Source of the DNA: an uncultured Vicinamibacterales bacterium
GTDB lineage: Bacteria; Acidobacteriota; Vicinamibacteria; Vicinamibacterales; UBA8438
Direction: 5' to 3'
NCBI GenBank assembly: GCA_958295905.1
Contig: OY282382.1
Location: 4,446,910 to 4,510,909, forward strand
DNA: 64,000 nt
Shown here piece by piece: positions 39,272 through 43,790 of this stretch. A model generated the notes under the pieces. That model searched no databases, had not been told where the DNA came from, and worked only from the letters and a program-made list of their open reading frames with translations. Both the position numbers and the translations under genes were made by a program. The stretch's first letter is position 1. Each line of letters starts with the position of its first letter.

Positions 39272-39751
39272 ATGCAGGGACAGACCCAGGTGATAGAGGC
39301 GCTGAACCGGGCGCTGACCGTCGAGTTGACCGCGATAAACCAGTACTTCTGCCAAGCGAAGATGTGCGCCAACTGGGGATTCCACCACCTCGCGAAGAAG
39401 CACCACGAAGAGTCGATCGGCGAGATGAAGCACGCCGAGCAGCTCATAGACCGCATCCTGTTCCTCGAAGGGACCCCGGAGATCGCGCGGTACGACGTCA
39501 TCCGGGTCGGAACCGACGTCAAGGAGCAGCTCGAGAACGACCTGGAACTGGAGATGAAGGGCGTCAAGCACTACAACGAGGCCATCGCCCTGTGCACCCA
39601 GCTCGGGGACAACGGCACCCGGGAGGTCCTCGAGCCGATTCTCACCGAGTCGGAAGAGCACGTCGACTGGGCCGAGACCCAACTGTTCCGCATCGAGAAG
39701 GTCGGTATCGAGAACTACCTGACCGAGCAGATGGGAGGCCACGACCGGTAG
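39272..39751 (+). CDS. bfr: Bacterioferritin with a Ser in place of one ferroxidase ligand
   Basis: A 159-residue bacterioferritin, normal length, which aligns without gaps to the E. coli numbering. Ferroxidase ligands Glu18, Glu51, His54, Glu94 and His130 are present, and Met52 is the usual heme ligand (SIGEMKHAEQ). Position 127, normally a bridging Glu in an ExxH motif, is Ser here (LTESEEHVDW), although Glu126 and Glu128 flank it. The protein stores iron as a 24-mer in the cytoplasm. GGAGGTGAGTC precedes the ATG. A bacterioferritin-associated ferredoxin gene lies 342 bp downstream on the other strand. Confidence 0.95.
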   Translation: MQGQTQVIEALNRALTVELTAINQYFCQAKMCANWGFHHLAKKHHEESIGEMKHAEQLIDRILFLEGTPEIARYDVIRVGTDVKEQLENDLELEMKGVKHYNEAIALCTQLGDNGTREVLEPILTESEEHVDWAETQLFRIEKVGIENYLTEQMGGHDR

Positions 39752-39989
39752 GCGCCCGTGGTGGTGGAACCCCGCGCCGCACCGAAACCGGCGAGGGCGC
39801 CATCAGGCTGCAAGACGCCTGCCGGACAAGACGTGACGAGCGAACACGTGGGGAATGGGTGACCGCGCCACAACCCGTTCAGCCGCGATGCATCGCCGGC
39901 GGACGCCCCGCCGCGGGGCGAACAGGACTATCCGGGCACGCAGATCCGGCGAGCGTAAAACGGTTCCGGACAGGATTTGGCAGACCCTG

Positions 39990-40132
39990 GCAAACCCCGC
40001 GTCGCACCGAGAGCGCCAGCGGGCTGAAGAACGCCCGTGACAAGACGTGAGGAGGGTGCCTATCGGGCATAGGCAACCGGCGGGCAACGCAGTCAGGCGG
40101 AATGCACCGCCGCTCGAATGCCGCGGGGATTT
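39990..40132 (+). repeat. Long inverted repeat, left arm
   Basis: This segment (AACCCCGCGTCGCACCGAGA to TCGAATGCCGC) recurs in inverted orientation at 40997-41163 with small insertions. The arms enclose the ferredoxin gene tail and the rearranged receptor fragments. The spacer 39752-39989 holds no gene. Confidence 0.7.
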
Positions 40133-40347
40133 TCGCCGCGGGGGGCTGGGGGCGGGGGCGGGCTCGACCAACTCGCGAGACAACGCTCGAGCCGTTGGTG
40201 GCAGGCGGTACAACCTGCGCCGGCCCCCGTCGCACGTATCAGCTCCCGCAGGGTGCAGATGCCGGTCTGTTCGAGGGCCGCGCACAGTTGGCCCTCGGTG
40301 ACCTGCAGACACGCGCAAAGGACCGCGTCGCGTTCCGGCATCTCCAT
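40093..40347 (-). CDS. bfd: Bacterioferritin-associated ferredoxin-like [2Fe-2S] protein
   Basis: The core VLCACLQVTEGQLCAALEQT and then GAGAGCTACHQRLERCLA has the Cys-X-Cys and Cys-X2-Cys pattern of the BFD-like [2Fe-2S] domain. Bfd reduces the iron core of bacterioferritin to release iron. The domain ends near residue 58; the remaining proline-rich tail and HSA terminus run into the inverted repeat and are probably not original. ATG 40347 with AAAAGG ahead is preferred; an ATG two codons later is possible. It faces bfr convergently. Confidence 0.75.
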   Translation of the reverse strand: MEMPERDAVLCACLQVTEGQLCAALEQTGICTLRELIRATGAGAGCTACHQRLERCLASWSSPPPPPAPRGENPRGIRAAVHSA

Positions 40348-40398
40348 GCGGCCTTTTATCATAGCATGCCTGAGAATGAGACGCGATCTCAAGCAGGT

Positions 40399-40430
40399 CC
40401 ATCCCACGCTCCGCCACCGTCGTGCGCAGG
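40399..40430 (+). repeat. Miniature element, end fragment only (copy E)
   Basis: CCATCCCACGCTCCGCCACC and the following GTCGTGCGCAGG match the left 32 bp of copies B and C. The rest of the element is missing. Confidence 0.6.
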
Positions 40431-40434
40431 GTGC

Positions 40435-40628
40435 GACCGGGTCTGGAAGAAGGTCGCGTCGAGGATGCGGCCCGGGTAGTCGAGGTCGCTCTGCTGCTGG
40501 TGGCCGCCGCTGTACTCGATCAGCGTTCGTTCAGCCGGCCGCCGAGGCTCCAGCGGGTGTCGTACGAGTCGTAGTCTCCCGGCACGACGTCACCGTTGCC
40601 GTCGGCATAATCGCCGCCGCTCAACGTG
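40435..40628 (-). pseudogene. TonB receptor, barrel fragment in inverted orientation
   Basis: The minus strand reads GGDYADGNGDVVPGDYDSYD and TRWSLGGRLNE. After a stop and shift it continues YSGGHQQQSDLDYPGRILDA, a typical mid-barrel segment of iron-type TonB receptors. It abuts, head to head, a plus-strand fragment of what looks like the same gene at 40629. This implies an internal inversion. Confidence 0.6.
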
Positions 40629-41000
40629 CGGTCCAACACGGTCCTGAACCTCGGCGCCGGACGGGCGGTCCGGAACCCGTCGGTGCTGGAGCGCTACTCG
40701 GACCGCTTTCCCGCCGTGAAGTTCCAGACCGCAGCCGAGTTCCTGGGCAACCCGAACCTCGTGCCGGAGAAGAGCCGGGAGTTCAACGCCGGATTGGTCT
40801 CCGTGCCGGGATGGTCGGTGGCCGAAATAGATGTCCTCCACCGCGTCATCGACGACTACATCACCGTCACGCCCGACGCCGATCTGCCGAAGCGGCTGCC
40901 CCTCAACCCCCCGTCGTCTTCCGCTACACACAGGGCGGCCAAGCCCGGTTCATCGGGTTCGACCTCCGCACGGAGACCCCGTTCGGACGGTGGTTCGACT
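40629..41000 (+). pseudogene. TonB receptor, later barrel fragment, frameshifted
   Basis: The plus strand reads NTVLNLGAGRAVRNPSVLER and YSDRFPAVKFQTAAEFLGNP and then IDDYITVTPDADLPKRLPLN. A shift in the CCCCCC run near 40908 is needed to continue VVFRYTQGGQARFIGFDLRT. This is the region of the conserved AVRNPS block in TonB receptors. The signal peptide, plug and C-terminus are absent. Confidence 0.7.
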
Positions 41001-41163
41001 TCCCGCGGCATTCGAGCGGCGATGCATCCCGCCTGACGGCGTTGTTCGTCGGTTGCCCGATGCCCGATAGGCACCCTCCCCACGCCTTGTCAAGCACGGG
41101 CGTTCTTTGCCCGCGGGCGCTCTTCAGCCGCTGGCGCCCCCGCCGCTCTCGGTGCGACGCGGG
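40997..41163 (-). repeat. Long inverted repeat, right arm
   Basis: Read on the minus strand it matches 39990-40132 (AACCCCGCGTCGCACCGAGA, AGGGTGCCTATCGGGCAT), with about 20 bp of extra sequence near the GAACGCCCG block. 41164-41216 has no gene. Confidence 0.7.
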
Positions 41164-41216
41164 GTTTCAACCACGGGCCGCCAAGAGCCTGCGGCCGTCA
41201 GCACGGCGCGCCTCCC

Positions 41217-41346
41217 GCCCCGTCGTGCTTGTTGAGGAGGAAGAGCTGACCGCCGGGACCGGTTCCTCGCCGGCTTACGGAACCAGCCGGCGGATCACCC
41301 CGTCGTGCTTGTTCAGGAGGAAGAGCTGACCGCCGGGACCGGCTCC
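41217..41346. repeat. Short direct repeat at the end of the dehydrogenase gene
   Basis: CCCGTCGTGCTTGTT(C/G)AGGAGGAAGAGCTGACCGCC appears at about 41219-41266 and 41299-41346. The second copy encodes the true C-terminus of the sugar dehydrogenase (LFLLNKHDG); the first is an orphan copy beyond its stop. This resembles the junction duplications at 28125 and 54808. Confidence 0.75.
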
Positions 41347-43654: not shown

Positions 43655-43790
43655 GGCGCACCCTCGGGCGTCGCCTGCCCAGGATCGTCGCCAGGTGCTC
43701 CTTCAGTTCGTGGGCCCGGTCCAACGCCCGGTTCTCATGACGCCACGTCTCCAGACACCGGGCCCCGCCAAGCTTCAGCGCGCGCCGGAT
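43655..43790 (-). pseudogene. ISL3-family transposase remnant
   Basis: The minus strand reads ALKLGGARCLETWRHENRAL and DRAHELKEHLATILGRR, matching the central part of ISL3 transposases. The DNA is closely related to the remnant at 48125-48300. No start, stop or terminal repeat is present. Confidence 0.6.

Follow-up and report, generated by a model that had tools for sequence, protein, structure and literature searches.

Facing repeats around bfd in a Vicinamibacterales genome as copies of a dispersed MITE family with a likely IS1182-like partner

INTRODUCTION

Bacterioferritin (bfr) and bfd are convergent neighbors in the genome analyzed here, and bfd is enclosed by two long repeats that face each other. 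What made this arrangement, and does it record a segment of DNA that once switched orientation? The stretch under study (hereafter the window) comprises 64,000 nucleotides. In it, bfd (minus strand) is followed, between the repeat arms, by a minus-strand and then a plus-strand piece of a TonB receptor. An earlier note on this DNA placed the arms at 39990-40132 and 40997-41163, described the two receptor pieces as meeting head to head, and suggested inversion events near an iron-storage locus that was possibly phase-variable in the past. We asked what the repeats are, where else they occur, and how the locus is arranged in related genomes.

RESULTS AND DISCUSSION

The facing arms and the features between them

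The facing arms are real and far beyond chance. When the sequence was read against the consensus of the repeat family described below, their ends shifted to the positions in Table 1. Within-window repeat comparison gave inverted segments (I1, I4, I5 and I14) with 89-94% complementarity between the arms, and a search of the organism's own genome aligned arm 2 to arm 1 at 86% identity (E 2.8e-33). The head-to-head meeting of the receptor pieces was likewise confirmed, with somewhat different boundaries. Copy B of the repeat (arm 2) is truncated at its inner end, where it contacts the downstream receptor piece. Besides the two arms there is a decayed third copy, which the earlier note had overlooked; it is diverged and in direct orientation. 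The family profile matches it at 39761-39898 (model positions 10-166, E 7.4e-17), and its start in Table 1 was set by eye.

Arm 1 overlaps the end of bfd: about 17 codons at the 3' end of the bfd ORF, along with its stop codon, are sequence of MITE copy A. The cluster motif of Bfd, CXC-X32-CX2C, is preserved. By comparison with the gene of G002, a genome of the same genus, the bfd start appears to lie near 40347. On the far side of copy B, a 49-bp stretch of the GSDH-like gene occurs twice (41218-41346), 80 bp apart, and is single in the corresponding loci of the two same-genus genomes, G001 and G002. A tRNA scan of the window found none.

Table 1. Coordinates of the features at the bfr-bfd locus (positions in the window)
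Feature	Coordinates	Strand	Remarks
bfr, bacterioferritin	39272..39751	+	PF00210, E 3.8e-36; TIGR00754, 189.2 bits (cut-off 125.55)
Decayed third MITE copy	39753..39898	+	Immediately downstream of the bfr stop codon; 66% identical to arm 1
MITE copy A (arm 1)	39981..40148	+	Between bfr and bfd; internal deletion; profile E 1.4e-37
bfd, longest ORF	40093..40407	-	Pfam Fer2_BFD, E 8.3e-8
Receptor piece A, upstream barrel part	40431..40622	-	~residues 193-263 of the L133 frame; one frame change
Receptor piece B, downstream barrel part	40642..41002	+	~residues 501-621 of the L133 frame; one frame change
MITE copy B (arm 2)	41002..41180	-	Covers positions 1-179 of the 197-position consensus, at 93%; profile E 1.9e-50
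GSDH-like gene end, second copy (49 bp)	41218..41266	-	96% to 41298-41346; scar between MITE copy B and the GSDH-like gene

The arms belong to a dispersed family of short elements

Used as a query against its own genome, arm 1 gave at least 50 matches, and 40 of 50 (itself included) span at least 100 of its 156 bases; this search took 250 first-look candidates, of which 40 were scored. We then used a profile built from 39 aligned copies, which are the best matches and hence biased to well-kept ones. It found 41 matches, fragments included, in 924 kb made up of four contiguous stretches, a sample that was hand-picked and non-random, having been chosen after an earlier search showed matches in parts of it, and that includes the window with three of the matches, as well as 2500 withheld bases. 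Without the window, there are 38 matches in 860 kb. At 44 matches per Mb, the 6.3-Mb genome would perhaps hold about 280.

The elements are mostly 160-200 bp long, with copies of up to about 300 bp seen. Their consensus ends form imperfect terminal inverted repeats, reading CAGCCCGTGG and then YGAAA. Allowing up to one mismatch, the 15-nt tip matched the genome 209 times, compared to a single match for the reversed control. The family is thus short, multicopy and bounded by terminal inverted repeats, like a MITE, and it is too short to encode a transposase of its own. Copies tend to lie outside predicted genes (32 of 41, versus 20% of random points), according to a gene caller that is crude, missing bfd and taking the downstream receptor piece for a gene.

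The ends of the element are able to pair as a long hairpin, and its core is conserved, as would befit a structured RNA or a REP-like palindrome rather than a transposable element. This identity is nonetheless very unlikely. The window copies fold no better than shuffled sequences (z of -0.41 and -0.98). In a consensus structure of 24 copies, the covariation term is +0.75, and both sides change in only 2 of 36 pairs. The Rfam scan of the window returned nothing at the gathering score. Finally, the family has target duplications of 4 bp and shares its ends with a DDE insertion sequence (IS), as follows.

Target site duplications and a probable partner insertion sequence

Among 45 full-ended copies, including both window copies and two copies in a duplicated locus, the four bases outside the CAG...CTG ends are 66% identical between the two sides; with shuffled partners, the figure is 39% (z about 8). 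One caveat is that many lengths and offsets were tried; longer stretches gave higher z values (up to 9.9), with the same four positions in register. The duplicated locus reflects a stretch common to contigs C3 and C1, as the MITE copies at 670 kb of C1 and 11 kb of C3 (L014, L018) share flanks.

In a separate pairing of facing tips, identical 4-bp flanks were found in 20 of 50 pairs 147-299 bp apart, in 1 of 16 facing pairs 300-1300 bp apart, and in 1 of 26 tip pairs separated by more than 1457 bp. At the level of the family, then, the elements carry a target site duplication of 4 bp. The window copies themselves have no clean 4-bp duplication: copy A is flanked by TTGG on the left and GGGG on the right, and copy B ends at its truncation.

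The facing-tip scan also identified an IS of exactly 1457 bp, present in 7 copies that are identical throughout, each with an exact 4-bp duplication (7/7). Its ORF contains DUF772 and DDE_Tnp_1 domains, and the best NCBIfam match of the transposase is the IS1182 family (NF033551), which it resembles in these respects. The score of 170.5 bits falls below the family cut-off of 270, and for this reason we call the element IS1182-like only. Twelve transposase ORFs at 100% identity in the genome suggest that the IS has been active recently. The left outer 15 bases of the IS agree with the MITE ends, and the right end shows about 3 differences; the MITE therefore has its ends in common with an autonomous IS of the same genome. 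Since the interiors show no clear relation, the MITE did not arise from this IS by simple deletion. Related IS copies in the loci of G010, G016 and G018 are 1465-1490 bp long; their ends are similar and flanked by a duplicated CTAG or CTAC, these ends having been chosen among several candidate pairs with up to 6 mismatches by length and matching flanks.

Because of the family-level 4-bp duplications and the existence of an IS with matching outer ends, we regard the repeat as a MITE. The 1457-bp IS is likely its autonomous partner, and from the shared ends and the duplications we infer that its transposase most likely mobilizes the MITE in trans.

The receptor pieces derive from one broken gene

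The downstream receptor piece matches the Pfam domain TonB_dep_Rec_b-barrel (E 4.1e-9). Had the two pieces come from different receptors, the interpretation in the earlier note would have been refuted, by its own criterion. In all seven receptor loci fetched from relatives, both pieces match one gene, 642-783 bp apart, and the pieces thus come from one receptor. The residue numbers in Table 1 rest on the frame of L133, with L135, L137 and L140 alike; for L131, L132, L134 and L136, the longest frame, which the comparison used, was incorrect.

In each of the seven loci, the upstream piece lies upstream of the downstream piece, on the strand opposite to the one it occupies in the window. Here, it is inverted relative to its partner, and the starts of the two pieces abut. 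What is left of the receptor has no start, middle or end, and its frames are shifted; judged by its sequence, it is a dead remnant.

A search of the genome itself for an intact copy of the receptor found none; apart from these pieces, it returned nothing but a distant receptor (28-31%). Of 59 other genomes, 13 match the downstream piece, G016 weakly (E 1.5e-4), and neither same-genus genome does. For an intact relative of the broken receptor (G012, L137), the best NCBIfam match is the TonB-dependent copper receptor (TIGR01778), at 194.4 bits, short of the family cut-off of 472.45.

The inversion proposed in the earlier note holds, then, for the upstream receptor piece, judged against all seven loci. 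It does not hold for the arms as the cause. A flip between the arms turns bfd and both receptor pieces as one block, and hence the arms did not make the receptor junction.

The orientation of bfd is that of related genomes

We compared the surroundings of bfr and bfd in other genomes. Among 30 other genomes searched, 10 have a bfd match, and in 7 of these (G008, G010, G011, G012, G015, G017 and G018) the two genes are convergent neighbors. Elsewhere, they are separated: G001 and G002 have them on separate contigs, and in G007 they are 3.3 kb apart.

In both G001 and G002, bfd is flanked as in the window, with a large TonB receptor on one side and the GSDH-like gene on the other, and its orientation also agrees, indicating that bfd has not been flipped. 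The MITE profile gave no matches at E ≤1 in four bfd or bfr loci of these two genomes. The gap between bfd and the GSDH-like gene holds a Uma2 gene in G002, and in G001 some 80 bp from the end of bfr persist next to bfd. Among these three genomes, only the one studied here has MITE elements and receptor debris at this locus.

These comparisons bear on the idea of a once phase-variable segment, in which recombination between the arms flipped bfd together with the receptor. The arms do face each other, at 86% identity and about 850 bp apart. Moreover, the 924-kb sample contains 7 cases of neighboring profile matches under 1300 bp apart, compared to 2.3 expected by random placing, and the window pair is the only facing pair among them; in some of the other cases, the two matches may be parts of one split or broken copy. 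Against this, no inversion between the arms relative to relatives was found: bfd is oriented as in 2 of 2 same-genus genomes, where no element was found at that place, and its convergent arrangement with bfr is shared with the seven relatives. Nor could a flip between the arms create a junction inside the receptor, whose pieces contain frame changes and are without start, middle and end. We therefore consider past phase variation highly improbable, and this part of the earlier interpretation is not supported. The locus, as far as its sequence tells, looks like ordinary genome decay rather than a gene switch.

The same synteny bears on whether the two MITEs could have carried bfd and the receptor debris together as one composite unit. 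The outer ends of both copies point outward, as in a composite transposon. In G001 and G002, however, bfd lies between the same neighbors with no elements, which largely refutes joint transport, and the outer 4-bp flanks are unlike (TTGG on the left versus CCAA on the right). Little weight can be given to a composite origin.

Repeats are common points of misassembly, and an artefact could in principle have joined repeat copies here. This is extremely unlikely, given that the contig is 6.1 Mb long and that gene order around bfd is, insertions aside, as in two other assemblies.

Proposed origin of the locus

We conclude, with a probability of about 0.88, that the arms are separate MITE insertions beside bfr and bfd, next to receptor debris, with an IS1182-like element as partner. 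The IS1182-like transposase would act on the MITE in trans, producing the 4-bp target duplication. Copy A and the decayed copy would have inserted into the gap between the convergent bfr and bfd. Copy B would have landed on the other side of bfd, beside TonB receptor fragments that were rearranged already or became so later. On this view, the head-to-head junction arose when the receptor itself was rearranged, and recombination between the arms did not produce it.

A different role for the family is conceivable, namely that it has been co-opted as a 3' end or terminator for adjacent genes, here capping both bfr and bfd and rewriting the bfd end. We view this as unlikely.

As separate MITE insertions, the arms are explained, and the lead toward phase variation at an iron-storage locus is removed. 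In its place stands a defined pair of MITE and IS, found in part of the genomes of the same order, which can land beside genes, extend them or break them.

Distribution of the MITE and its likely partner

We searched 59 further genomes of this order with arm 2 (E ≤0.001), and 35 of them had MITE matches. An exact 27-nt core occurs in 35 stretches of 5 named assemblies; by title, 34 of these stretches are from Vicinamibacteria, Vicinamibacterales or Acidobacteria and one is from Pseudomonadales. Arm B had no match, in distant mode, among plasmid and phage records.

In 30 other genomes searched for both elements, 19 had a MITE match, and 10 of the 19 also had a transposase match. Two of the 11 genomes with no MITE match have the transposase (G010 and G030). 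These co-occurrences were counted by hand, and most of the genomes are incomplete drafts. The MITE and the transposase are not always found together, which counts against a strict partnership. G007 has 25 MITE matches and G013 has 15, and no transposase match was obtained in either genome; their MITE copies may have been left with no transposase to move them, or a different IS may act on them.

Comparison with known elements

The MITE family belongs to a known kind, and the sequence of the locus gives no sign of phase variation. Table 4 of a study of Methanosarcina acetivorans (PMC3852290) lists an IS1182-associated MITE of 160 bp, with 14 copies, 26-bp inverted repeats and 4-bp direct repeats. 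That study names ISMac2, of the IS1182 family, as the putative partner of the M. acetivorans MITEs. The family described here is similar, as judged by description, in size class, 4-bp duplication and IS1182-type partner. The M. acetivorans elements differ in having an archaeal host and far fewer copies, and a second one (169 bp, 7 copies) is given there with no direct repeat (PMC3852290).

IS1272 has been placed in the IS1182 family; its transposition is reported to replace inverted repeats, unlike that of elements which duplicate their target (PMC5678879). The likely partner IS of the present MITE has a 4-bp duplication and in this respect is unlike IS1272. A literature search of partial coverage, by title and the start of the abstract, found no description of the present MITE.

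Other elements with MITE-type ends, and an ISL3 relic

Several elements in the genome depart from the usual form. Three of 53-58 bp consist of little beyond two MITE ends (L200 10849-10901, L196 4158-4213 and L213 5683-5740), and their flanking bases match at 3 of 4 positions. At L199 10852-12769, an ISL3-type transposase gene lies between facing MITE-type ends that are 1918 bp apart and have a matching 4-bp flank, CCAA. This is possibly an IS inside a MITE, or else a chance pairing.

The window itself contains an ISL3-type transposase relic on the minus strand (43665-43778). On its own, the relic has no Pfam match; a 38-aa stretch of it aligns at 76% with an ISL3 transposase that is intact in this genome and that Pfam identifies as DDE_Tnp_ISL3.
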